The notes under the pieces are model-generated. The model saw only the letters and a list, made by a program, of their open reading frames with translations, was not told the DNA's origin and did no database searches. This document shows positions 17,961-34,641 of a stretch of DNA of 64,000 nt, in pieces (the first letter of the stretch is position 1; each line of letters opens with the position of its first letter). Origin of the DNA: an uncultured Flavobacteriales bacterium (lineage in GTDB: Bacteria > Bacteroidota > Bacteroidia > Flavobacteriales_D > Parvicellaceae). The translations under genes and the position numbers were made by a program. The DNA is taken from contig CAJQPO010000007.1 of assembly GCA_905480225.1 (NCBI GenBank), forward strand, positions 1 to 64,000. Direction: 5' to 3'.

Positions 17961-20900
17961 ATGAAAAGATATTTACTCTTACTACTTGTTGTGTTTGTCG
18001 CACATCCAATCTTTTTTGCACAATCTAGACTTGCGAATATTAATGTCTCAACAACTTATCGTACACACAATTACGACTGTGGTTTGGGAGGAGATTTTTT
18101 TACAGATCCAGATCCGAGATATGATATTAGGGCGCAATATCTAAGTGGGGGAGTCGGAAGTGGATTGGTAGGTCCTCCAGTATTTTCTTTTGACGAAGAG
18201 CCTTGCAGTGGTTATGACTTTAGTCATACCATAATGGATGTTCAAGGAGTATGTGCGGACGAAGTTCAGATCAGAATTGAATGGTGGGAAGAAGATGGTG
18301 TTTTAGGAGGCTGTTGTGGGTCTTGTACCACTTATAACCCATCTGGCTGTACGAATAATGATGAAAATTATAATTTATTTAATCCAATACGTACGCTAAC
18401 ATCCATGCCAGAAGGTATCACAAATACGTATCAAGTGGCGGGTAATGATTTCACGGTTGATTACACTATTTTTTGGGAACGCGTTCCTACACCTACTTTG
18501 GATGCGGCATCAATTACGGCAGTTTGTGATGGTTCTTTGGCAAGCTTAATTGCAAACACTTCCCAAACGATTGCTGGTGCTGATTTTTATTGGTGGGATA
18601 ATTCATTTGGTACTGGCGTCCCAGTTGGATCTGGATCTACTTTTACTCCTACAGTAACAGGTTCTACTTCTTATTGGGTGGGATATTCTTTTTCTGCTCC
18701 TTTGTTTTGTAGAACGGATCTTTTACAAGTTGATGTATCTGTTCTACCTGCACCCATACCTTCAGCTCCTGGTGTTTCGGCGTGTGTCGGAACAGCCGCA
18801 ACTTTGTCGGCTTTTGAGGCTACTGCTGTTGATTACACTTGGTATTCTGATCCCGCAGGAACCATTGCAATAGGAACTGGCACTTCGTTCACTACTGGAA
18901 CGATAAGTGCAGACTCTACGTTTTATGTGGCTGCAAATCATTCAAATGGTTGTGAGAGTGCACTGGTGTCAATTTTGGTCTCTACGTTGAGCTTGTCTGG
19001 GGACCCAACTGCCATTAATGCCGCACCAACGGCATCTATTTGTCCGGGAGGGGGACCTGTTAACTTATCAGTACTCGGAGGTTCTTTAGGAGCTGGAGCT
19101 GATTGGCAATGGTATTCAGGAACATGTGGAGGTACTTCATCCGGTTCAGGCCTTTCGATTTCGGTAAGTCCTGCTGTGACAACAACTTATTATGCCCGGG
19201 CAGAAGGAACATGTGGTACAACCAATTGCGCATCATTAACGGTGGTAGTTGAGTCTCTTTCTACCGCAGCCACTGGAATTGCGGCTAATGATAGTTCTGT
19301 TTGCCCTGGTGATGCTGTAAACTTAAGTGTTGTAGGTGGCGTTTTAGGAACCAGCTCAGACTGGCAGTGGTATGGCTCAGCTTGTGGTTTAATTCCTCTT
19401 GGTTCTGGATTTTCAGTTGTTGTTAATCCGGTTGTTACATCAACGTATTATCTCCGTGCTGAAGGAAATTGCGATACATCGAGCTGTGTTTCATTAACTA
19501 TAAATGTTGAGAATATTGCAGCAGCAGCAGATTCTGCAACGGTTACAATTGATAACATTTGCCCGGGTGACACCAGTCAATTAGTTGCTCATTCTGCAGC
19601 GGTTTTGGGTGCGGGATATACCTGGGTATGGTACACCGGAGCGTGCGGTGCCGTTCCAGTTGGTATTAGTGATACGCTTGATGTTATGCCTACATCAACT
19701 ATGACTTATTACTTGAGGGCTGTTGGTACTTGTGGCTTTTCAAACTGTGAGACAACGACACTTACTGTTTTGCCAGGATCCATTGCGCCAACTGGTGTTA
19801 CAACGAACAACAACAATTTTTGCGAAGGTGATAGCGCTGTACTTACGGTAGTCGACGGAACGCTTGAAACCGGTGCGCAATGGACATGGTATGAAAACGC
19901 GTGTGGCGGCGCACCTGTAGGAACAGGCGCTTCAATTACAGTAATTCCTGGTAACACTACAACTTATTTTGTTAGGGCTGAAGGTGGCTCTTGTGGTAAT
20001 ACATCCTGTGCATCGATTATGATATCTGTATTTTCTATCAACACAATACTTATTGTCCCTTTTGATACGCTTTGCGCTCAATCTTCAAGTGCATTCAATC
20101 TATCTGGTGGTTTCCCAATTGGCGGGGTTTATGCCGGAACAGGAGTTTCAGGAACGGTTTTCGATCCTTCAGCAGCCGGTGCAGGTACGCATACAGTAAC
20201 CTATACTTACACGGATGGCAATGGTTGTGTTGACTCTGCAAGTCAAGATTTAGTTATTGAACTTGATAACGTTTCGCCAGCAGGTATTATGTCAACGGAT
20301 TCTATAATCTGTGACTCTACAGATTTGACATTGTATGTTGTAGGTGGTTCTCTTGCACCTGGCTCAGACTGGATTTGGTACCAGAATAACTGCGGAGAGA
20401 TTCAACTGGGTACAGGCGATAGTCTAATGGTTTCACCTGGGGTAACAACGACGTATTACGCCAGAGCTGAAGGTGGCGTTTGTGGACCATCTGAATGCGT
20501 CTCATTCACCGTAATTTTGTCGGAGGTGAGTGCTATGATGATTCCTTTTGAAGACATTTGTGAAGGAACAATTGTAAATTTAGAAAATGGTTTTCCAAAT
20601 GGAGGAACGTATTCAGGTTCTGGTGTTTCTGGAGGTACATTTAATCCTACTGTCGCTGGTTTAGGTGTCCACACAATCAGTTATTTATATACGGACAACT
20701 ACGGATGTTCCGACCTGGCTACAGCAAACGTAACGGTTTCTACAAATCCTTTAACTGCAAGTGCAGAAATTTCGTCTGAACCCTGTGCTGAGGGTGGAGT
20801 AACGATTACGGTTTCTCCTCTAGGTGGTACAGGTTTTTACAACTACTTCTGGTCTGATGGCACATTTGAAAATCCATATCATTACGCACCAGTTGGAACT

Positions 20901-21233
20901 TATTCTGTAGTTGTATCAGATGGTACTAATTGTTCTGTACAGCTATCCAATATTGAAATTTCGGATGAATTAGGTTGTGTAGAAGTTCCTAATTCATTTA
21001 CGCCAAACGGAGACGGTATGAATGATACCTGGAATTTAAATTTCAATGGAAACAATGATGTCAGCTTACAAGTTTATTCTAAATGGGGGAAGCTCGTTTT
21101 TGAAACAAAGAGCCCAACGATTCAATGGGATGGTCAGTACGGTGGCGATGACCTTCCATCAGGGACCTATTATTATGTTTTGAAATTAGATGATTCTGTA
21201 GATCAAAATGGTCCGTTAACCATTGTAAGGTAA
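17961..21233 (+). CDS. Large T9SS-exported adhesin-like protein with Ig-like repeats and type-B sorting domain
   Basis: 1090 residues: signal peptide (1-21), a Cys-rich N-terminal region (to about 180), then about eight Ig-like/PKD-like beta repeats of roughly 85 residues. Each repeat has a conserved Cys pair and a D-W-x-W-Y strand (for example GADWQWYSGTCGG) and ends in TYYxRAEG. The last ~84 residues form the gliding-motility/type-B T9SS sorting domain, starting VEVPNSFTPNGDGMNDTWNL near 1007. Such proteins cross the outer membrane through T9SS and stay at the surface or are released. The PorP/SprF-family gene 22 bases downstream is the usual partner of type-B cargo. Confidence 0.87.
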   Translation: MKRYLLLLLVVFVAHPIFFAQSRLANINVSTTYRTHNYDCGLGGDFFTDPDPRYDIRAQYLSGGVGSGLVGPPVFSFDEEPCSGYDFSHTIMDVQGVCADEVQIRIEWWEEDGVLGGCCGSCTTYNPSGCTNNDENYNLFNPIRTLTSMPEGITNTYQVAGNDFTVDYTIFWERVPTPTLDAASITAVCDGSLASLIANTSQTIAGADFYWWDNSFGTGVPVGSGSTFTPTVTGSTSYWVGYSFSAPLFCRTDLLQVDVSVLPAPIPSAPGVSACVGTAATLSAFEATAVDYTWYSDPAGTIAIGTGTSFTTGTISADSTFYVAANHSNGCESALVSILVSTLSLSGDPTAINAAPTASICPGGGPVNLSVLGGSLGAGADWQWYSGTCGGTSSGSGLSISVSPAVTTTYYARAEGTCGTTNCASLTVVVESLSTAATGIAANDSSVCPGDAVNLSVVGGVLGTSSDWQWYGSACGLIPLGSGFSVVVNPVVTSTYYLRAEGNCDTSSCVSLTINVENIAAAADSATVTIDNICPGDTSQLVAHSAAVLGAGYTWVWYTGACGAVPVGISDTLDVMPTSTMTYYLRAVGTCGFSNCETTTLTVLPGSIAPTGVTTNNNNFCEGDSAVLTVVDGTLETGAQWTWYENACGGAPVGTGASITVIPGNTTTYFVRAEGGSCGNTSCASIMISVFSINTILIVPFDTLCAQSSSAFNLSGGFPIGGVYAGTGVSGTVFDPSAAGAGTHTVTYTYTDGNGCVDSASQDLVIELDNVSPAGIMSTDSIICDSTDLTLYVVGGSLAPGSDWIWYQNNCGEIQLGTGDSLMVSPGVTTTYYARAEGGVCGPSECVSFTVILSEVSAMMIPFEDICEGTIVNLENGFPNGGTYSGSGVSGGTFNPTVAGLGVHTISYLYTDNYGCSDLATANVTVSTNPLTASAEISSEPCAEGGVTITVSPLGGTGFYNYFWSDGTFENPYHYAPVGTYSVVVSDGTNCSVQLSNIEISDELGCVEVPNSFTPNGDGMNDTWNLNFNGNNDVSLQVYSKWGKLVFETKSPTIQWDGQYGGDDLPSGTYYYVLKLDDSVDQNGPLTIVR

Positions 21234-21255
21234 TTTAACGCTAAAACTCAATAAT

Positions 21256-22203
21256 ATGATAAAGGTAGTTTTAATAGCATTTGTTTTTATTCTGACATCG
21301 TCAGTTTGGAGTCAACAAATCTCCATGTACAGTCAATATATGTTTAACCAGTTTTCAATCAACCCTGCTGTTTCTGGGTCTGAAATGTATGCTCCAGTAG
21401 CTTTAAGTTTTAGAAGGCAATGGGCGGGCATGAAAAATGCACCAGTTACCCAAACCTTATCTGCTCACTCTTTTATGGGCGAGTCAATGGGAATTGGGGC
21501 CAATATTTTTAACGATGTTTCTGGTCCAACTCGTCGAACGGGTTTGAGCGCTGCGTACAGTTATCACATTTCGGTAAGCGACCATTCAAAATTGTCATTT
21601 GGTGTTGCTACCCACATTACACAGTTTGTTTTAGATAGGGATAAATTGATTACAGAATTGCCGAACGATATTGCTATTCTTAATCAAACGAGTAACGAAT
21701 TAGTACCAGATTTTACTTTTGGTCTGTATTGGTATGGTGAAAATCATTTTGTAGGTTTTTCTGCTTTGAACCTATTGGAAAGTAAAAATGACCTGTTTGA
21801 TATAACCACTCCGGTCACCAATACCTTAGATCGGGCGTTTTATTTTAGTGGAGGTTATCGGTTTAAGGTGGGGGAATCTTTTAAAATTGAACCTTCGCTA
21901 CTTTTTCGTTACATGTTAAATGCACCATTTCAATTGGATATCAATTCACGGTTTATTTTGAAAGAAAAGTATTGGCTGGGCTTTTCCTACAGGCTAAATG
22001 ATGCCTTTGTAACCATGTTAGGGGTAGATTTAGGTGCAATTTGTTTTGGGTATTCTTACGATTATACAATGTCTGACTTAGTAAATTACAATTCAGGTTC
22101 ACATGAGGTGTTTTTAGGTGTAAAAATGTTTAAAGGAGGTAAAGGTAAAACACCATGGCATAAGAGAAACCGACTGTATTCTTCGTATTCAAAAGGAACT
22201 TGA
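21256..22203 (+). CDS. PorP/SprF family type IX secretion outer-membrane protein
   Basis: 315 residues with a signal peptide (1-19) and the family hallmark at the mature N-terminus, QQISMYSQYMFNQFSINPAV, then a beta-barrel pattern with SFRRQW (53-58). PorP/SprF proteins are membrane anchors or export partners for type-B sorted cargo; many paralogues occur per genome, each often beside its own cargo gene. Here the large adhesin lies directly upstream and the PorE-like gene directly downstream, so this one probably serves that adhesin. Confidence 0.9.
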   Translation: MIKVVLIAFVFILTSSVWSQQISMYSQYMFNQFSINPAVSGSEMYAPVALSFRRQWAGMKNAPVTQTLSAHSFMGESMGIGANIFNDVSGPTRRTGLSAAYSYHISVSDHSKLSFGVATHITQFVLDRDKLITELPNDIAILNQTSNELVPDFTFGLYWYGENHFVGFSALNLLESKNDLFDITTPVTNTLDRAFYFSGGYRFKVGESFKIEPSLLFRYMLNAPFQLDINSRFILKEKYWLGFSYRLNDAFVTMLGVDLGAICFGYSYDYTMSDLVNYNSGSHEVFLGVKMFKGGKGKTPWHKRNRLYSSYSKGT

Positions 22204-22227
22204 ATTAATTCAAAATAACCATCAAAC

Positions 22228-24666
22228 ATGAAGATTTATTTTCTTCAACTTTTTATTGCCTTCGGCATCGTTTCATCATCTTTTGCTCAATTAAAAGAAG
22301 CGAATGACCTATTCGATAATTTCGAATATAGAGAGGCGATTAAGTACTTTGAAAGTGTAGGAAATTTAGACGAAGAAAATAGACTGAAATTGGCTTTTTG
22401 TTATTTCAGGATACACGATTTTAAAAATGCTCATTTTCAATTTTCAAACGTTATTTCAACGGAAGGAATAAGTCCAATTAATTACCATTTTTATGGGATA
22501 TGCTTAAAAAATATTGGAAGATTTGACGAGGCAAGGGTTTGGTTTCTGCGTTATCAAAAGTTGGACTCACTTGATTTTTTTAACAACTTAAATTTAGAAG
22601 AACTCGAATTTCAGGAAAGCCAGTACCTTGCCCCTGAACGATTAGAGTTGATTAATCTAACTGCTATTAATAGTGGTCTATCGGAATTTTGTCCTCGTTA
22701 CTTTAAAGATGGGTTTATTTATTGTGATGAGGTCAAATTTGATGAAAGCAATAAAAGACCACATATAGATTATGGAAATGATAGCTTAGATATTGATGCA
22801 TTAGAATATGGCTCAGCAGAACGGCCTTTGGCAGAGTTGTATTATGTTCCTATTACGGGTGACATGCATGGTTCTCCTACATTAATGGCTGAAGATGATC
22901 ATTTTCATATAGGTGATTTTGATATTGATGAAATTACTGGTGAAATTTACTTTACTAAAATTGATTTATTAAATAAGTGGAATCCTCAAGCACGGAGTCA
23001 TCCCCGTCTTTTTAAAGCCAAGTTTGATACTGTCAATAAAAAGCTGGTTGATGTAAAAAAAGTAAAGATCAAGAAACTGCATGACGAAGACGGTTCGGGA
23101 CATCCAACCTTATCTGCAGACGGAAATAGGATGTATTTTTCGTCTAATCGCCCACATGGATATGGTGGTTCTGATTTGTATTACACTAAAAAATTGCCAA
23201 ATGGCAATTGGGATGAGCCCATTAACTTGGGAGACCAGGTTAATACCCCTGGAGATGAACTGTACCCTTATTTATTCAAGGATAGTTGTTTGTATTTCTC
23301 TTCTAATGGGCACATAGGTTTTGGTGGCTTGGATTTATTCAAAGTTTTGGTTGACAGTTCTGAGGCGAGTAAAAGAGAAATTCTTCCAAAACCTCTCAAT
23401 TCCGAATCTGATGATATTGGTTTATTACTGAATGAAAACAATACCGATGAGGGATTTGTAGTCTCGAATAGATTTCATGGTGGATTTGGTGACGATGACA
23501 TGTTTAGGTTTAAATTGAAGCTAGACGATTCATATGTGCAGGGGGTGGTAAGAAATGAAGATGGTTCGGTAGCGTCAAATGCATTAGTTAAGTTGTTAGG
23601 TATAGATGGACATGAAATTCAGCAACTCAAGACTGATAAAAATGGGAAGTACTTTTTTGATCTTGATTCGAATGAAACTTATCATTTAATTGCTACCACG
23701 AATGGACATGTCGCAAAAAAGCAAATCACACTAGGTCCAGATTGGAATAGCAAGGATCCTCTTGATTTAACCTTAATGCCAGCTCCAACTGTACAAGGTT
23801 TTGTGTTGGATGAGGCTGGTGAAATAGTTACGAGTGCAATAGTAAACTTATTAGATGATAGCGGGAATTATTTAGTTCAAACCGCTACAGATAATGAGGG
23901 AAGATATCAATTGGCACTGGATGAGAATAAAAAATATACCGTTGTTGCAAGAATTAAAGGTTTTCAAGGAGAAATAAAAGTATTGACGGATGATACATGG
24001 GATACTAATCAGGATTCTAATATTACTATGGTACCGACAGAATTGGTGCAAGGGGTAGTTTCTGATTCCACAGGTAAACCGATACCAGGAGCTTTGGTCA
24101 AATTACTTAACAACAAGGGTGTTGAAATTGGTCAAATAAAGACAGATAGTAATGGGTTTTATACGTTCACAGTGCCACCGGGAAATTATCAGCTTGTTGC
24201 GAGTATTAATGGATTAGGTGCTAAAGAGAATATTGTAATAGGTGAAAACTGGGATGGAGATAATTATTTGAATTTGGTTCTACTTCCTATGGCTACAGTT
24301 CAGGGTACCGTATTTGATATTGACGGCCTACCTGAGGCCAATTCAAAAATATTTCTTTACGATGAAAACGGTACTGTTCTTGTTCAATCTTGGACAGATG
24401 AAAATGGTAAATATCAATTTGTATTAACGGCAAATAGTAACTATGACATTGTTGCAGAAAAAGAAAACCTAAAGGGTAGTGTTCAAGTGGCAACAAATGA
24501 TTCTTGGGATAATCATAAAGTGACAGACATTCATTTAACGAATACAACGGTTGTTTCCGGAATCATATTGGATAATGATGGTAATCCGGTGGAAGGTGCA
24601 ACGGTTAAATTGTATGATGATAACGGTAATTTAATCGCAACGGTTAAGACAGGTGCAAATGGTTAA
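22228..24666 (+). CDS. PorE-like T9SS-associated protein, N-terminal part (ends at a premature TAA)
   Basis: 812 residues before the stop: signal peptide (1-20), TPR-like helices (about 25-130), a PD40/WD40-like beta-propeller (about 140-430; signatures GHPTLSADGNRMYFSSNRP and SSNGHIGFGGLDLF), then carboxypeptidase-regulatory-like (CRD) repeats. The order TPR, propeller, CRD, OmpA matches PorE of Porphyromonas, which tethers T9SS parts to peptidoglycan. The TAA at 24664-24666 falls inside CRD repeat 5, where an earlier repeat reads GGT AAA TAT (Gly-Lys-Tyr) at the same place; here it reads GGT TAA TAT. The frame continues without change to 25431, so the intact gene would be 1067 residues. Confidence 0.85.
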   Translation: MKIYFLQLFIAFGIVSSSFAQLKEANDLFDNFEYREAIKYFESVGNLDEENRLKLAFCYFRIHDFKNAHFQFSNVISTEGISPINYHFYGICLKNIGRFDEARVWFLRYQKLDSLDFFNNLNLEELEFQESQYLAPERLELINLTAINSGLSEFCPRYFKDGFIYCDEVKFDESNKRPHIDYGNDSLDIDALEYGSAERPLAELYYVPITGDMHGSPTLMAEDDHFHIGDFDIDEITGEIYFTKIDLLNKWNPQARSHPRLFKAKFDTVNKKLVDVKKVKIKKLHDEDGSGHPTLSADGNRMYFSSNRPHGYGGSDLYYTKKLPNGNWDEPINLGDQVNTPGDELYPYLFKDSCLYFSSNGHIGFGGLDLFKVLVDSSEASKREILPKPLNSESDDIGLLLNENNTDEGFVVSNRFHGGFGDDDMFRFKLKLDDSYVQGVVRNEDGSVASNALVKLLGIDGHEIQQLKTDKNGKYFFDLDSNETYHLIATTNGHVAKKQITLGPDWNSKDPLDLTLMPAPTVQGFVLDEAGEIVTSAIVNLLDDSGNYLVQTATDNEGRYQLALDENKKYTVVARIKGFQGEIKVLTDDTWDTNQDSNITMVPTELVQGVVSDSTGKPIPGALVKLLNNKGVEIGQIKTDSNGFYTFTVPPGNYQLVASINGLGAKENIVIGENWDGDNYLNLVLLPMATVQGTVFDIDGLPEANSKIFLYDENGTVLVQSWTDENGKYQFVLTANSNYDIVAEKENLKGSVQVATNDSWDNHKVTDIHLTNTTVVSGIILDNDGNPVEGATVKLYDDNGNLIATVKTGANG

Positions 24667-25062
24667 TATCAGTTTACCCTAGATAGAGATGAAAATTATC
24701 AAATAGTAGCAAGTATCGATGGATTTGAAGGTGTAGCAAATATTTTTACGGGGGATAATTGGAACGAAGATCATATCGTACAGATTAATCTGCTGCCTGC
24801 TGGAACTCCTACAAAAGGATTGGTGTTGGACAATAAAGATGGTAAAGGTATAGAAGGGGTGAAAGTGACACTAATTGACAACGAATCTGACAGTAAAATC
24901 ATTTTATTCACGAACAATAATGGCCTCTTTGATCTTGCATTATCTCAGAATAAAAGCTACACCCTGAATTTAGATAAGGAAGGCTATTATCCTAAATCAA
25001 TCATCGTAAATGCAGGGGAAAAGCTTCCCGAAGTAATTGATTTAAACAAAGAGTATGATTTG
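23533..25062 (+). repeat. Six tandem ~255-base coding repeats (CRD domains)
   Basis: Repeat units start near 23533, 23788, 24043, 24295, 24550 and 24808, spaced 255, 255, 252, 255 and 258 bases. Each encodes ~85 residues beginning V-x-G-x-V and containing D-x-x-G-x-Y and a DxW motif. The units are diverged at the base level but in register, so they arose by old tandem duplication. The premature stop lies in unit 5. Confidence 0.8.
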
Positions 25063-25431
25063 GCTATGGATTATGCAGGCTATGACGTAAATAAGATTTA
25101 TTTCGATTATGATAAATCGACTTTAACTGAGGAGTCCTTAGAACAATTAGATAAACTTGTGGAGACCATGAAAGAAAACGTGAATGCGCTACTATTTATC
25201 AAATCATATGCGGATTGCAGAGGACCTGACAAATACAATACAAGTTTGTCTTGGCTCAGGAGCAAAGCGGTTAAGGAATACTTAGTCAATAAAGGAATTG
25301 AGCCAGAAAGAATTGGAACCAAATCAATGGGTGCGACGAATTTTGTAAACAATTGTATTCAACCAGCGGATTGCACGGAAAAAGAACATGCTGTTAACCG
25401 GCGATCAGAATTTGAGATTAAGTTCAAGTAA
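24667..25431 (+). pseudogene. C-terminal part of the PorE-like gene (CRD remainder and OmpA domain), downstream of the premature stop
   Basis: In frame with 22228-24666 and directly after its TAA. It encodes the rest of CRD repeat 5, repeat 6 (from about 24808) and an OmpA_C-like peptidoglycan-binding domain (IYFDYDKSTLTEES, from about 25096, with a NRRSEFEIKF end). There is no convincing start; the first possible one, TTG at 24820, falls inside repeat 6 and has no signal peptide, so it is unlikely to be a separate gene. Without read-through the OmpA anchor would be lost. Either a real nonsense mutation or a sequence error. Confidence 0.75.
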
Positions 25432-27394: not shown

Positions 27395-28759
27395 ATGTCT
27401 AAAGCCGTTAAAATTCGTAGAGGCTTAAACATCGCATTGCAAGGTAAGGCGGACAAAGTCCATGCCAATGCAAACGAGGCGAAGCAATATGCAATAAAAC
27501 CGACTGATTTTCATGGGTTAATGCCAAAACTTGTGGGTAAAGAAGGGCACAAATTGAAAGCTGGATCGGTGTTATTCTACGACAAATACAACGAAAGTAT
27601 TAAATATGCGTCGCCCGTTAGTGGTGAAATATCTGAAATTCGTAGAGGAGAAAAACGAAAAATATTGGAGGTAATCATTACCCCAGACGGAAAAGATTCT
27701 TTCGAAAAGCATGATGTTGCGGATCCAAACGACTTAAGTAGGGAAGAGATTCTTGAAAAAATGTTAGCTTCTGGATTGTGGCCATTTATTAAAATGAGGC
27801 CAGTCGATATTGTTGCTAATCCTACCGACACTCCTAAAATGATTGTTGTTTCCGCATTTGATTCGCATCCTTTGGCTCCAGACTATAATTTCTTATTGAA
27901 GGACGATCAAGAAGCATTTCAAACAGGAATTAATGCACTAAATAAGCTTACGGAAGGTTCTGTTCACCTCAACATTCGAGGTGAGAAAAAACAGAGCTCG
28001 ATTTTTGAACAATGTGAAAATGTTCAAATCAATCTTTTTGGAGGGGTGCACCCTTGTGGAAATGTAGGTGTTCAAATTCATCATATTGACCCGATTAACA
28101 AAGGAGAAGTAGTTTGGACAGTTAATCCTGCTGACGTAGCCGTAATCGGTAAATTTTTCATGTCTGGTAGGTTTGATACAGAGCGTGTTGTGGCCTTAAC
28201 CGGTTCGAAAGTAAATGAGCCTCGTTATCTCAAAACAAAAATTGGTGCGTCCATAGATAGTTTGGTCAAGAATAATATTGACGCGGAGAATGTTCGTATT
28301 ATCTCGGGTAACGTATTAACTGGAGACAAGACTGATGACAAAGGGTTTATAGGGTATTATCATCATCAAATCACGGTGGTGCCAGAAGGAGATCACCACA
28401 AGTTTTTCTTGACCGATGGATGGTTGAGTCTAGGGTTTAATCGATTTTCAATGTCCACGTCATACCCAACCATGCTCAATGCACCAAGTAAGAGATGGGA
28501 ATTAGATACCAATCTGAATGGTGAAGAAAGAGCATTTGTTGTATCAGAACAATACGAAAAAGTTTTTCCATTTGATATTTATCCCGTTTTTCTCATAAAA
28601 TCAATCTTAACGAATGATATTGATGGAATGGAAAAATTAGGAATTTACGAAGTAGCACCAGAGGATTTTGCGCTTTGCGAATTCGTTTGTACGTCTAAAA
28701 TCAATTCTCAAAAAATAATTCGAGACGGTTTAGATATTATTAAAGAGGAGTGTTTATAA
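27395..28759 (+). CDS. nqrA: Na+-translocating NADH:quinone reductase subunit A
   Basis: 454 residues. NqrA is the peripheral cytoplasmic subunit; it has an N-terminal barrel-sandwich region like RnfC (KIRRGLNIALQGKAD, then a GHKLKAGSVLFYDK segment near 51-64) and a Rossmann-like middle part (HPLAPDYNFLLK). It contains no covalent cofactor and sits over the quinone site. First of six nqr genes in the usual order A-B-C-D-E-F with 1-18 base gaps, so it defines the operon start; the operon promoter is probably in 27266-27394, but I see no exact TAnnTTTG there. Confidence 0.95.
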   Translation: MSKAVKIRRGLNIALQGKADKVHANANEAKQYAIKPTDFHGLMPKLVGKEGHKLKAGSVLFYDKYNESIKYASPVSGEISEIRRGEKRKILEVIITPDGKDSFEKHDVADPNDLSREEILEKMLASGLWPFIKMRPVDIVANPTDTPKMIVVSAFDSHPLAPDYNFLLKDDQEAFQTGINALNKLTEGSVHLNIRGEKKQSSIFEQCENVQINLFGGVHPCGNVGVQIHHIDPINKGEVVWTVNPADVAVIGKFFMSGRFDTERVVALTGSKVNEPRYLKTKIGASIDSLVKNNIDAENVRIISGNVLTGDKTDDKGFIGYYHHQITVVPEGDHHKFFLTDGWLSLGFNRFSMSTSYPTMLNAPSKRWELDTNLNGEERAFVVSEQYEKVFPFDIYPVFLIKSILTNDIDGMEKLGIYEVAPEDFALCEFVCTSKINSQKIIRDGLDIIKEECL

Positions 28760-28768
28760 AAGCAAGAA

Positions 28769-30049
28769 ATGAAATTTTTAAGAAACATATTTGATAACGC
28801 TCATCATAAGCTAGAATCAAAAGAAAAAATCAAAAAGTTTTGGCCTTTGATAGATGCTTTTGATACGCTTATGTTTACCCCGAAAGAGGTAACGAAGTCT
28901 GGTTCGCACATTCGTGATGCGATCGATTTGAAACGAACGATGATGCTAGTAATCACTGCCATGGTTCCGTGTTTATTATTTGGCATTTATAATGCAGGAT
29001 ACCAAAGTTTACGCCTTACCGAGGCGGGTTGGGACGCAGGAGTTTTGGATTGTTTCATGGCTGGTTTGCCTAAAATATTACTGCTGATTATCGTTTCTTA
29101 CGCTACTGGTTTAGGTGTAGAATTTATTTTTGCGATACGGAATCAACATTCTGTAGCAGAAGGATTTTTGGTTTCTGGAATGTTGATTCCATTGATTATG
29201 CCAATAGATGTGCCACTTTGGATGGTAGTAGCCGCCACGGCTTTTGCCGTTTTAATTGGCAAAGAAGTCTTTGGAGGTACAGGGATGAACATTTTGAATG
29301 TCGCACTAACCGCGAGGGCATTCTTATTCTTTGCGTATCCCACAAAAATGTCTGGTGACAAGGTGTGGATTTCTGATTATGAGTTAATGAAAGAAAAGAG
29401 CCTGGCTGTTAAAGAAAATGTGGCTAATGGAACGGAAATTCCTGAACACCTTGCAAATGTACCAGAGCTCGTTGATGGCATGTCTGGGGCAACTGCGATG
29501 GGGGAACTTGCCAGTACTTTTGACGCAACAGCAGCACATTCAGAAGCAGTTACCTCGATGTTCGCTTCGGGAGGACAATTTGATTTTATGAATTCATTTT
29601 TAGGTTTAATACCTGGTTCAGTTGGAGAGACTTCAGCACTAGCTTGTTTGTTGGGTGCTGGAATGTTGTTAGCAACGGGTATTGCTAGTTGGAAGGTAAT
29701 TGGATCTTTTTTCGTTGGTGGTTTATTCATGACCTCTGTTCTTTTCGCAATTGGAGGAAACCCTTATTTTGATTTAAATCCAATTCATCAATTGATGTTG
29801 GGTGGCTTCATGTTTGGAATGGTATTTATGGCCACAGATCCGGTAACTGCTTGCCAAACGGGTACAGGAAAATTCATTTATGGATTTTTGGGTGGTTCGC
29901 TCGGAATTTTGATCCGGATTTTAAACCCTGCTTACCCTGAAGGAATTATGTTAGCAATTTTAATTGCGAATGTGTGTGCTCCATTAATAGATCACATGGT
30001 GATCCAATCGAATATTAAACGAAGACTAAGTCGACTAAAAACCGCATAA
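28769..30049 (+). CDS. nqrB: Na+-translocating NADH:quinone reductase subunit B
   Basis: 426 residues, multi-pass membrane subunit of the RnfD/NqrB family. The flavinylation motif DGMSGAT places the covalent FMN on Thr242. An N-terminal cytoplasmic tail (1-55, KFLRNIFDNAHHKLESKEKI) precedes about ten membrane helices; the VGETSALACLLGAG and MATDPVTACQTGTG segments are conserved in the family. NqrB carries FMN and riboflavin and forms much of the sodium path. Flavin is attached by ApbE, whose gene ends this operon. Confidence 0.95.
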   Translation: MKFLRNIFDNAHHKLESKEKIKKFWPLIDAFDTLMFTPKEVTKSGSHIRDAIDLKRTMMLVITAMVPCLLFGIYNAGYQSLRLTEAGWDAGVLDCFMAGLPKILLLIIVSYATGLGVEFIFAIRNQHSVAEGFLVSGMLIPLIMPIDVPLWMVVAATAFAVLIGKEVFGGTGMNILNVALTARAFLFFAYPTKMSGDKVWISDYELMKEKSLAVKENVANGTEIPEHLANVPELVDGMSGATAMGELASTFDATAAHSEAVTSMFASGGQFDFMNSFLGLIPGSVGETSALACLLGAGMLLATGIASWKVIGSFFVGGLFMTSVLFAIGGNPYFDLNPIHQLMLGGFMFGMVFMATDPVTACQTGTGKFIYGFLGGSLGILIRILNPAYPEGIMLAILIANVCAPLIDHMVIQSNIKRRLSRLKTA

Positions 30050-30050
30050 A

Positions 30051-30884
30051 ATGGCTATTAATAAAGAAAGTAATTCGTATACAATAATGTTCGCCGTTGC
30101 TATGGTTGTTGTTGTTGGTGGTCTTTTGGCGTTTACCTACGAATCCTTTAAGGACGTCATAAAAAGTAACCAAGAAAACGAAAAGAAGCAAAACATCTTA
30201 CAAGCAATCGGAATCGCTGAGACAGGTGGTAAAGATTTTGATAGGACTGCGGCACAGGAAGTCTTCTATAAATATGTTACCAGAAGAATAACACTTTCTT
30301 ATGAAGGGCAAATATTAAGTGACTTACCTGCCGATAGTATCATTAATGCGTCAAATAAGCTAGATGCCTTTAACATAGACTTAAGAAAAGAGTATAAGCT
30401 ATACGGTAAGAAGGTAATCAAGAATAACAAGGGAAGCAAAGAGAAATTGGCTGCAGGATTGGCCGCAGAAGATAGAATTCATTATCCTTTGTTTGTTTGT
30501 GAAAAAGGAGATTCAACTTTTTATGTAGTTTCTGCTGTTGGAACGGGCCTTTGGGATGATGTTTGGGGTTATATTGGAATTAATTCAAACTGTCAAACCA
30601 TTAGTGGTTCTGTTTTCGATCATAAAGCGGAAACGCCCGGATTAGGTTCGAAGGTTACTGAAGATTGGTTTCAAAAACAATTTGTTGGTAAACGAATCAT
30701 GGCTGAAGATGGCGAAACCAGGTTGAAGCTAGAGGTTCGAAAACCAGGAAATGAATTGAATATCCATCAGGTAGATGGAATTAGTGGCGCAACATTTACA
30801 GGTGCAGGTGTTGCAGAAATGTTGGAAAGATCATTTGTGGTCTACCAAGATTTTTTTGATAATAATCCAGAATTCAAAAAATAA
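30051..30884 (+). CDS. nqrC: Na+-translocating NADH:quinone reductase subunit C
   Basis: 277 residues: one N-terminal membrane helix (about 10-29) and a periplasmic FMN-binding domain. The motif DGISGAT places the covalent FMN on Thr248. The family's GLWDDVWGYIGI and ETPGLGSKV segments are present. NqrC shuttles electrons on the periplasmic side. The start codon follows the nqrB stop by one base, so translation is probably coupled. Confidence 0.95.
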   Translation: MAINKESNSYTIMFAVAMVVVVGGLLAFTYESFKDVIKSNQENEKKQNILQAIGIAETGGKDFDRTAAQEVFYKYVTRRITLSYEGQILSDLPADSIINASNKLDAFNIDLRKEYKLYGKKVIKNNKGSKEKLAAGLAAEDRIHYPLFVCEKGDSTFYVVSAVGTGLWDDVWGYIGINSNCQTISGSVFDHKAETPGLGSKVTEDWFQKQFVGKRIMAEDGETRLKLEVRKPGNELNIHQVDGISGATFTGAGVAEMLERSFVVYQDFFDNNPEFKK

Positions 30885-30889
30885 GAGGC

Positions 30890-31549
30890 ATGGCAGAGGT
30901 AAAAGAAAAAGAGCCGTTATTCTCTAAGAAGAACAAAAGGTTAATTACGGATCCGTTGAATGACAATAATCCGGTAACAATACAAGTACTAGGTATTTGT
31001 TCGGCATTAGCGGTCACGGTTCAATTGGATAATGCAATAGTGATGTCTATTGCGGTAATGGCTGTATTGGTTATCGGTAATGTGGTAGTTTCTTTGCTAA
31101 GAAGTTTTATCCCTCCAAGGATTCGAATCATCGTTCAGCTTGTTATCGTTGCATCACTGGTTATCATTGTTGATATTGTGTTAAAAGCATTTGTTTACGA
31201 TGTTTCTAAGCAACTTTCAGTCTTTGTCGGACTCATCATTACCAATTGTATCATTATGGGTCGTTTGGAGGCTTTCGCAATGGGTAATAAACCATGGGCA
31301 TCTGCTTTGGACGGAGTTGGTAACGGATTAGGTTATGGGTTTGTTTTGATTGTTGTTGCGATTTGTAAAGAATTATTTGGTTCGGGATCGTTAACTATCC
31401 CTGGATTTGATAAGTTTCAATTTATTGCTGAAGGCTCTGGTTACCTGCATAACGGTTTAATGCTGTTACCACCTTCTTCGTTGGTTTTAGTAGCAGTCTA
31501 TATTTGGATTCAAAAAACCAGAAACAAGAAATTAATAGAAGAACATTAA
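30890..31549 (+). CDS. nqrD: Na+-translocating NADH:quinone reductase subunit D
   Basis: 219 residues, six-helix membrane protein of the NqrD/RnfE family. Two conserved Cys are visible, Cys37 in VLGICSALAV and Cys120 in ITNCIIMGR; with two from NqrE they hold the intramembrane iron centre. The N-terminal ~30 residues are hydrophilic and cytoplasmic. It lies 5 bases after nqrC. Confidence 0.95.
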   Translation: MAEVKEKEPLFSKKNKRLITDPLNDNNPVTIQVLGICSALAVTVQLDNAIVMSIAVMAVLVIGNVVVSLLRSFIPPRIRIIVQLVIVASLVIIVDIVLKAFVYDVSKQLSVFVGLIITNCIIMGRLEAFAMGNKPWASALDGVGNGLGYGFVLIVVAICKELFGSGSLTIPGFDKFQFIAEGSGYLHNGLMLLPPSSLVLVAVYIWIQKTRNKKLIEEH

Positions 31550-31567
31550 TTAAAAGAAGAAAGAGAA

Positions 31568-32182
31568 ATGGAATACTTTAAATTATTCATACGTGCTGCC
31601 TTCGTAGACAACATGATCTTTGCATTCTTTTTTGGAATGTGTTCATATTTGGCGGTGTCAAAAACGGTAAAAACGGCAGTTGGTTTAGGAATGGCTGTAA
31701 TTTTTGTTCTAACAGTAACGGTTCCTGTCAACTGGTTATTAGATACTTATGTATTGCAAGAAGGAGCTTTGTCTTGGTTAGGACCTGAATATGCCAGCTA
31801 TGATCTCAGCTTTTTGAGTTTTATCATGTTTATTGCAGTTATTGCGTCAATTGTTCAATTAGTCGAAATGATTGTTGAGAAGTTCTCACCAGCTCTTTAT
31901 GGTGCCTTGGGAATCTTCTTGCCATTAATCGCAGTAAACTGTGCCATTTTAGGGGGTGCATTGTTTATGCAACAAAAACAATTTGGAGATATTGCTGAAG
32001 CTACGACGTACGGATTGGGTTCTGGATTTGGATGGTTCATAGCGGTAGTTTTAATTGCGGCAATAAGAGAGAAAATTCGCTATTCTCATATACCTGCCCC
32101 ACTTAGAGGAGTTGGTATGGCTTTCTTAATTACGGGCTTAATGGGATTGGCATTTTTAGGATTTTTAGGTTTTAACATTTAA
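31568..32182 (+). CDS. nqrE: Na+-translocating NADH:quinone reductase subunit E
   Basis: 204 residues, a membrane paralogue of NqrD with inverted topology. Cys25 (FGMCSYLAV) and Cys124 (AVNCAILGG) complete the four-cysteine iron site with NqrD. An AAIREKIRYSHIP cytoplasmic loop near the C-terminus is typical. The iron at this site needs a maturation factor (NqrM in Vibrio); a candidate lies at 34668-34871. Confidence 0.95.
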   Translation: MEYFKLFIRAAFVDNMIFAFFFGMCSYLAVSKTVKTAVGLGMAVIFVLTVTVPVNWLLDTYVLQEGALSWLGPEYASYDLSFLSFIMFIAVIASIVQLVEMIVEKFSPALYGALGIFLPLIAVNCAILGGALFMQQKQFGDIAEATTYGLGSGFGWFIAVVLIAAIREKIRYSHIPAPLRGVGMAFLITGLMGLAFLGFLGFNI

Positions 32183-32195
32183 TAGTGATTTAAGA

Positions 32196-33491
32196 ATGAC
32201 TGGAGTAGTAATAACATCAATTATAGTTTTCTTGGCTGTAGTGCTTTCACTAACGGCCTTGCTCTTATTTGCAAAGGCAAAATTGGTTTCTTCTGGAAAA
32301 ATTAAGATTACCATTAATGGAGAAAGAGAACTAGAAGTAGAAGGTGGAAACACTTTATTAAGTACGTTAGGTACCGCAGGTATTTTTTTACCATCCGCTT
32401 GTGGTGGTGGTGGAACTTGTGTGCAATGTATTTGTCAAGTTCATACTGGCGGTGGATCAATATTACCTACAGAAGTTCCGCATTTTTCTCGAAAGGAAAT
32501 AGCTTCTAACCACAGACTTGGTTGTCAGGTCAAGGTTAAGGAAGATATGGAGATTGAAGTAGAGGAGGAAGTTCTAGGAATTAAGGAGTGGAAAGCAAAA
32601 GTGGTTTCTAATTATAATGTGGCAACGTTCATCAAAGAATTTATAGTTGAAATTCCTGAGGATATGGACTACAAAGCTGGTGGATATATCCAGATCAATA
32701 TTCCAAAATGCACCATTAATTATTCAGATATGGACGTTGAAGCACATCCACAGGATCATCCTGGTGAGCCGGAGAAATTCAAGGCTGATTGGGATAAATT
32801 TGGTTTATGGCCATTGGTGATGAAAAATGATGAAGAAGTTGTTCGTGCTTATTCGATGGCATCTTATCCAGCTGAAGGTCGAAAAATCATGTTGAATGTT
32901 AGGGTTGCTACACCACCTTGGGACCGCAAGAACAACGATTGGATGAAAGTCAATCCAGGCATAGCATCCTCTTATATTTTTAATTGTAAAGCAGGTGATG
33001 AGGTAACCATCTCGGGACCTTATGGCGAATTTTTCATCAACGAATCTGACTCAGAAATGCTTTACGTTGGTGGAGGTGCAGGAATGGCGCCTATGCGTTC
33101 ACATTTATACGAGTTATTTAAAACATTAAAAACAGGTCGGAAAGTAACCTATTGGTATGGCGGTCGCTCACGTGCGGAATTGTTCTATATACATTACTTT
33201 AGAGATCTTGAAAAAGAGTTTTCCAATTTTAAATTTTATTTGGTGTTGTCAGAGCCATTGGAATCTGATAATTGGGTTGAAAAGAAAGACATTGATGATC
33301 CAAATGGTGATGGATTTCTAGGATTTGTACATAATGCTGTAATTGATCAGTATTTAAGTAAACACGATGATCCTGAGGATATTGAGCTTTACTTCTGTGG
33401 ACCTCCGCTAATGAATGTTGCCGTTCAGAAAATGGGTGAAGATTTCGGGATACCTGATGATAGTATAAGATTTGATGATTTTGGTGGTTAA
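32196..33491 (+). CDS. nqrF: Na+-translocating NADH:quinone reductase subunit F
   Basis: 431 residues, the electron-entry subunit. In order: one N-terminal membrane helix (about 5-25), a [2Fe-2S] ferredoxin domain (Cys69, Cys75, Cys78, Cys110), an FAD domain (RAYSMASYP) and an NADH domain (GGGAGMAPMRSHLYE; CGPPLMN near the end). It oxidises NADH and passes electrons through FAD and the iron-sulfur centre. Its last bases overlap the longest possible apbE reading frame, and a strong terminator follows 22 bases after its stop. Confidence 0.96.
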   Translation: MTGVVITSIIVFLAVVLSLTALLLFAKAKLVSSGKIKITINGERELEVEGGNTLLSTLGTAGIFLPSACGGGGTCVQCICQVHTGGGSILPTEVPHFSRKEIASNHRLGCQVKVKEDMEIEVEEEVLGIKEWKAKVVSNYNVATFIKEFIVEIPEDMDYKAGGYIQINIPKCTINYSDMDVEAHPQDHPGEPEKFKADWDKFGLWPLVMKNDEEVVRAYSMASYPAEGRKIMLNVRVATPPWDRKNNDWMKVNPGIASSYIFNCKAGDEVTISGPYGEFFINESDSEMLYVGGGAGMAPMRSHLYELFKTLKTGRKVTYWYGGRSRAELFYIHYFRDLEKEFSNFKFYLVLSEPLESDNWVEKKDIDDPNGDGFLGFVHNAVIDQYLSKHDDPEDIELYFCGPPLMNVAVQKMGEDFGIPDDSIRFDDFGG

Positions 33492-34641
33492 CACTTGTCA
33501 CAATAGTATTTTTAAAAAGTCCCGATTGATTGGGACTTTTTTGTTTTCGCTGCTTTTCTATTCCTGTACAGATAACACCAATACTAATGGACGTAAGTCA
33601 TTAGAAAAGGATGAATCGAGTAGGAAAAACAGTTCGGAAAATAATTTCTATACGATTGAAGGGTTTGCTCAAGGAACGACCTATCAAATAAAATATGAGG
33701 CTTCACACGATTTAAAAATCAAACGCGAAATTGATTCATTGCTACAAGATTTTGATTGGCACTTATCAACGTATTTGGATTCAAGTTTAATTTCTGATTT
33801 TAATAATGCAGATGTTCATTTCTATTGCCAAATTGTTTCCAGTATTATAGCCAATTGCTTTTTAGAATCTCGAAAAATTTATGAAGTTACTGATGGTGCT
33901 TTTAATCCAGCTGTCTACCCACTGGTTGATTTTTGGGGGTTTTATGACATGGCGAATAAAGAACACCAGCCAACTCGGGAGGAAATTGATTCAGTATTAA
34001 AATTCATTGTTTTTGATTCCACAGCTATTCAATTGGTTCAAAATAAATGGATAGATACGGATGAGCTAAGTGTCAACGAATTGTGTAAGGTTGATGCAAG
34101 ATTGAAGCTGGATTTCAATGCCATAGCGCAAGGTTTTTCAGTAGACTTAATTGGACTTTTCCTGAAATCTTGGGGTGTTGAAAATTACATGGTAGAGTTA
34201 GGTGGCGAGGTAAAATGTCGAGGAGTAAATGCATATGGTAATTTGTGGAAGATTGGTATTGATCGCCCATCTGATGGAGCAAGTGTGGCAAACAGAGTAC
34301 TTAATGCAGCTGTACTGGTAGATAATAAAGGTTTAGCAACATCGGGTAATTACAGAAAGTTTTATGAGCTGAATGGTATTAAATATGCGCATACGATCGA
34401 TCCTAGGACAGGGATGCCTGTTTCTCATTCCTTATTAAGCACTACGGTTGTTTCTGACAAAGCTTCTGTATCTGATGCTTATGCAACAGCATTTATGGTT
34501 TTAGGTGTAGAAGAGACTAAGCTATTTCTTGAAAAACATGAAGAATTGGACTTGGATGTCTATTTAATTTATGCCAATGCTAATGGAGAATTTATTACTT
34601 GGATGAACAGCGGTATGAAAGCAATTATAGAGGAATTTTAA
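33475..34641 (+). CDS. apbE: FAD:protein FMN transferase (flavin transferase ApbE), lipoprotein
   Basis: 388 residues from the ATG at 33475 (a TTG one codon earlier is also open); an internal TTG at 33526 would start closer to the signal peptide. A hydrophobic segment ends in LLFYSC, a lipobox, so the enzyme is probably anchored on the periplasmic side. Family motifs: GFAQGTTYQIKYEA (about 64-77), GGEVKCRG, and the metal-binding IDPRTGMPV near the C-terminus. ApbE moves FMN from FAD to Thr in SGAT motifs, as in the NqrB and NqrC genes upstream. The N-terminal codons contain the hairpin of an intrinsic terminator, so expression may be lower than nqr or come from another promoter. Confidence 0.92.
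   Translation: MILVVNTCHNSIFKKSRLIGTFLFSLLFYSCTDNTNTNGRKSLEKDESSRKNSSENNFYTIEGFAQGTTYQIKYEASHDLKIKREIDSLLQDFDWHLSTYLDSSLISDFNNADVHFYCQIVSSIIANCFLESRKIYEVTDGAFNPAVYPLVDFWGFYDMANKEHQPTREEIDSVLKFIVFDSTAIQLVQNKWIDTDELSVNELCKVDARLKLDFNAIAQGFSVDLIGLFLKSWGVENYMVELGGEVKCRGVNAYGNLWKIGIDRPSDGASVANRVLNAAVLVDNKGLATSGNYRKFYELNGIKYAHTIDPRTGMPVSHSLLSTTVVSDKASVSDAYATAFMVLGVEETKLFLEKHEELDLDVYLIYANANGEFITWMNSGMKAIIEEF
33514..33542 (+). terminator. Intrinsic terminator of the nqr operon, inside the 5' end of apbE
   Basis: AAAAAGTCCC (33514-33523) pairs with GGGACTTTTT (33532-33541) around an 8-base loop, and the descending arm doubles as the T run. This is the shape of a factor-independent terminator. It follows the nqrF stop by 22 bases but overlaps the region coding for the ApbE signal peptide. 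Confidence 0.75.

Follow-up and report, generated by a model that had tools for sequence, protein, structure and literature searches.

An adhesin–PorP/SprF–PorE-like operon in a Flavobacteriales metagenome-assembled genome whose third gene carries a lone in-frame stop codon, probably a consensus error

The window analysed here is a stretch of 64,000 nucleotides from the genome of an uncultured Flavobacteriales bacterium (GCA_905480225.1, contig CAJQPO010000007.1, positions 1 to 64,000), and it carries at 17961-25431 three genes on one strand, encoding an adhesin-like protein, a PorP/SprF-family protein and, as third member, a PorE-like protein interrupted by one stop codon. The window's genome (G000) was compared with two congeners, the closest of which (G002) is a marine Crocinitomicaceae metagenome-assembled genome (MAG; records JABJPZ010000180.1 and 182.1), the other (G001) being more distant. 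The features of the locus are the following:

17961-21233, + strand: secreted adhesin-like protein of 1090 aa, with Ig_7 repeats and, at its C-terminus, a type B sorting domain of the T9SS (CHU_C / TIGR04131)
21256-22203, + strand: PorP/SprF-family outer-membrane shuttle/anchor of 315 aa (TIGR03519, PF11751)
22082-23782, no strand: tract 94-100% identical to G002 by sliding identity, with flanks at 74-92%
22228-24666, + strand: part of the PorE-like gene before the stop, 812 aa, with signal peptide, TPR, PD40 beta-propeller, CRDs 1-4 and the start of CRD 5
23536-25062, + strand: six CarboxypepD_reg-like repeats (CRDs), placed by Pfam CarboxypepD_reg and unit boundaries
about 23536-23790, 23791-24045 and 24046-24297, + strand: CRD units 1-3
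about 24298-24552, 24553-24810 (containing the stop) and 24811-25062, + strand: CRD units 4-6
24664-24666, + strand: in-frame TAA at codon 813, where both congeners align with a codon for lysine
24667-25431, + strand: part after the stop, 254 codons and the natural stop, with the remainder of CRD 5, CRD 6 and an OmpA-like peptidoglycan-binding domain

The adhesin-like protein is matched by Pfam Ig_7 (5.6e-61) and CHU_C (7.7e-21) and carries a type B C-terminal domain (CTD) that scores 68.6 bits against TIGR04131, for which the cut-off is 35. The PorP/SprF gene lies directly 3' of it after a gap of 22 bp (TIGR03519, 274 bits against a cut-off of 90.6; Pfam PF11751, 2.7e-81), and the PorE-like gene follows directly 3' of porP after a further 24 bp, with its OmpA domain beyond the stop. 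The locus is thus an operon of a type B CTD adhesin, a PorP/SprF protein and a PorE-like protein, and an ordinary member of a known operon kind. In F. johnsoniae, a PorE homologue is encoded in such operons together with a type B substrate and the SprF-like protein that shuttles it, and the PorE-like neighbours are tied to static adhesins (PMC12618676), while biochemical precedent is given by the PorE-PorP-PG1035 complex of P. gingivalis (PMC9143113) and by a structure of PorE with peptidoglycan (PMC7192894). A physical complex that holds the adhesin static is known only from pull-downs in P. gingivalis and has been proposed in F. johnsoniae (PMC9143113, PMC12618676). If the anchoring function described from work on these two species is taken over by analogy, export into the periplasm would be the normal fate of the PorE-like protein, whose TPR and propeller would there bind the PorP barrel, the six CRDs would bridge the gap and the OmpA domain would grip peptidoglycan, the outcome being that one particular surface adhesin would be made static. 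Further along the window, six genes at 27395-33491 resemble those for the Na+-translocating NADH:quinone reductase (nqrA-F) and are followed at 33472-34641 by an ApbE-like flavin transferase gene, all named from their translations alone.

When translated, 22228-25431 comprises 1068 codons, interrupted by a single internal stop and closed by the natural stop at 25429-25431. This translation confirmed an earlier sequence-only reading in which the frame was unbroken except for the TAA, placed in CRD repeat 5 at GGT-TAA-TAT, and in which repeat 4 had GGT-AAA-TAT at the matching place (24406-24414). The domains proposed there are likewise supported by Pfam, with TPR_2, PD40, CarboxypepD_reg (1.6e-49) and OmpA arranged as in PorE. 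The OmpA match (about 25099-25365, E 5.3e-17) is a complete domain lying after the stop; among solved structures, 6top, from the OmpA family, comes closest to this region (9.5e-16), and the core motif is retained in the alignment. The split arrangement is not one of chance, since 254 codons with a complete OmpA domain continue the frame of the 812 codons before them, and both congeners pass the position of the stop in one open frame. Membership of the PorE family in the strict sense was not found: the first 55 residues contain no cysteine, so that the signal peptide, unlike that of PorE, offers none for acylation, and the parts before and after the stop score 223.5 and 83.8 bits, respectively, against the PorE family (NF052230), which has a cut-off of 600. 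The best NCBIfam match by score is the CHU_0125 OmpA family (NF053607; 246 and 105 bits before and after the stop).

The window's genome (2.8 Mb) holds 34 type B CTD matches over the cut-off, 14 PorP/SprF genes and about 20 PorE-like genes, and from the positions of these matches we infer about eight triads (contigs C7, C36, C39, C70, C71, C96, C111 and C124). The locus shows the extent to which the PorE-like anchor family has expanded in one genome. The best PorE candidate (G000:C55:44755-46710, 524 bits) has no stops, and it is likely this gene, not that of the window, which encodes the core PorE. Because this better candidate is intact, the secretion machine itself is spared, and without the window gene one adhesin would be deprived of its anchor, with secretion in general left untouched. 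The suggestion that its loss would untie the T9SS from the cell wall was therefore abandoned, and loss of the core T9SS anchor was ruled out, the gene being one of about 20 paralogues and scoring 223.5 bits where 600 are needed.

The same codon was then read in the relatives. G002 aligns over 23182-25431 at about 89% DNA identity with no gap and reads as a single open frame in which the aligned codon is AAA, and G001 has an open frame of 1070 residues with lysine at that place; both congeners thus have lysine in an intact frame, and the TAA is one substitution away from their codon, in agreement with the proposed single-base break. The orthologues are single frames, and among the matches listed only that of G005, which belongs to a different genus, is interrupted, through frame changes that represent either an independent lesion or assembly indels (PorE-like orthologue at G005:C3:57682-60102, L077 / L054, with matches in frames 2, 3 and 2). 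The 27-nt context of the stop, allowing up to three mismatches, occurs once in the window's genome and is absent from the congeners. As judged by these alignments, the window's genome alone carries the TAA, and a patch copied from another genomic copy was ruled out by the single occurrence of its context. The high-identity tract of about 1.7 kb listed above (22082-23782) extends from the end of porP through the TPR and propeller regions and CRD 1, and dS between G000 and G002 is 0.043 in residues 1-306 as against 0.36-0.53 downstream, a pattern which points to probable recombination between lineages. The G002 assembly breaks inside this tract.

Selection behind the stop was assessed from the same alignments. 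Residues 814-1067 differ between G000 and G002 by 63 synonymous and 14 nonsynonymous changes (dN/dS 0.045), compared with a dN/dS of 0.21 in the CRDs before the stop. When the changes after the stop were polarised with G001, 16 synonymous and 5 nonsynonymous changes fell on the G000 branch and 18 and 6, respectively, on the G002 branch, and neither further lesions nor relaxed selection were found after the stop. Without selection on this part throughout the G000 branch, an excess of nonsynonymous over synonymous changes would be expected; as none is seen, the stop either arose very recently or does not exist in the real genome, and the purifying selection after it rules out an old pseudogene.

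Several ways in which an interrupted gene might still be productive were weighed. It had been suggested that recombination among the repeats of about 255 bases could remove or restore the stop, giving a switchable gene. There are indeed six units of near-equal length (starting at residues 437, 522, 607, 691, 776 and 862; 252-258 nt each, about 85 aa), and their number varies, with six in the window gene and in the orthologues from two further genera (G006 and G013) and four in those from a third (G028 and G031), so that unit number changes on the time scale of genera. The description as repeats nevertheless holds for the protein rather than for the DNA, as the units are only 53-64% identical pairwise at the DNA level, with longest exact runs of 7-10 nt; Tandem Repeats Finder detected no tandem repeat, and a repeat-family search of the DNA found no family of the CRD unit. 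Such runs and identities are too short and too low for RecA-type homologous recombination, the near-identical DNA repeats that an on/off switch would use are missing, and the gap-free alignment with G002 over 23182-25431 likewise argues against rearrangement. Repair of the stop by recombination among the CRDs was accordingly rejected, and a switch is scarcely credible. Hardly better placed is the view that two functional proteins are made, with the 254-codon downstream frame releasing a free OmpA protein from a start of its own. A candidate TTG start does occur at 24820 (203 aa), but the product would have no signal peptide, which would confine its OmpA domain to the cytoplasm, promoter-like matches were no better than those in shuffled sequences, and the orthologues are single frames. 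Read-through or recoding of the stop, yielding the full-length protein, would account for the purifying selection seen after the stop on the G000 branch. It is nonetheless very unlikely, as TAA is the commonest normal terminator in this genome (139 of 205 genes with orthologue-supported ends), as the part of the genome scanned (about 1 Mb) contains no suppressor-type tRNA with anticodon tta, and as the lysine of both congeners leaves no conserved recoding site; on the first two of these grounds an alternative genetic code or suppressor was also dismissed.

What the stop is was further examined through other breaks in the same assembly. Open reading frames were compared over about 1.05 Mb of G000, 0.77 Mb of G001 and 0.2 Mb of G002, without counting spurious-looking frames, stops at gene ends or stops upstream of the real start (e.g. 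in a LytTR-type regulator in L098). After this filtering, G000 retained three internal stops, in the PorE-like gene, a TlpA-like thioredoxin gene and ilvD, and one frameshift, in thiC, amounting to 4 broken genes of 252 as opposed to none of 316 in G001 and G002 together (Fisher p = 0.038). The ilvD gene (L082:6195-7874, i.e. G000:C36:46195-47874) has an internal TAG at L082:7341; it is the sole match over the family cut-off in the genome (a TIGR00110 match at G000:C2, considered as a second ilvD, was rejected as below the cut-off) and is flanked by an intact ilvE-like aminotransferase gene and intact ilvB-, ilvN- and ilvC-like genes. Similarly, thiC (L130:8116-10025, G000:C13) is frameshifted near codon 158, at about L130:9500-9550, and adjoins intact thiamine-pathway genes read from their sequences as thiD-, thiE-, thiG- and thiH-like. 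In the thioredoxin-like gene (L080:501-998, G000:C36), a TAA at L080:843 stands where G001 has lysine, again a change from AAA to TAA; about ten codons past this TAA there is also a Gly-to-Cys difference in a conserved stretch. Where an operon is otherwise perfect and one central gene in it is broken by a single base, the pattern is that of a consensus error. The ratio of nonsynonymous to synonymous private changes shows no overall excess in G000 relative to G002 (0.328 vs 0.319), and an error rate that gives only four breaks would be too low to show up in a test on private substitutions.

On this basis, the TAA at 24664 is probably a single-base consensus error of the metagenome-assembled genome, a reading preferred because ilvD, thiC and the thioredoxin-like gene of this assembly are likewise broken by single bases, and one which the comparison with relatives favours and does not prove. 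Several points weigh against it: the difference in broken genes between the assemblies is only mildly significant, the ratio for private changes is not raised in G000, the break in the thioredoxin-like gene is likewise from AAA to TAA, and a gene with about 20 paralogues could really be lost. The main competitor is a real and very recent nonsense allele, either fixed or polymorphic in the population, which is a distinct possibility and clearly the less probable of the two. Under such an allele, the putative PorP-binding parts would be kept and the peptidoglycan anchor lost, and either PorP by itself would retain the cognate adhesin or the truncated protein would be degraded. One substitution from the codon of the congeners would suffice, the loss would be tolerable within the redundant set of PorE-like, PorP/SprF and type B CTD genes, CRDs 1-5 evolve faster (dN/dS 0.21), and the lack of decay is equally to be expected of a young allele; however, ilvD and thiC are also broken, and these are implausible as real losses within intact pathways. 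It is improbable, going one step further, that a recent nonsense allele frees the adhesin and PorP from their wall tether, with the PorP-binding half of the anchor preserved, and turns a static adhesin into a mobile one in the population. The two options named at the outset, a recent knockout or a sequence error, hence both stand, with the consensus error preferred. More generally, a lone in-frame stop in a draft genome from a metagenome is best judged in the light of any stops that housekeeping genes of that assembly contain and of selection on the DNA beyond it.

By NCBIfam score, the PorE-like protein comes nearest to the CHU_0125 family of Cytophaga hutchinsonii (PMC5891637), yet it lies far under the 620-bit cut-off of that family. 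Compared with PorE of P. gingivalis (PG1058), the window protein has six CRDs where PG1058 has one, lacks the N-terminal lipobox Cys and falls below the NCBIfam PorE cut-off, whereas it shares with PG1058 the succession of TPR, beta-propeller, CRD and OmpA domains and the adjacent partner of the PorP family (PMC9143113, PMC7192894). With respect to Fjoh_3952-3951-3950 of F. johnsoniae (PMC12618676), the window gene differs in its six CRDs, its frame broken by TAA, its origin in a marine Crocinitomicaceae-like MAG and a function that is predicted, and the two loci are alike in encoding the same three kinds of protein, in the same order and on a single strand.
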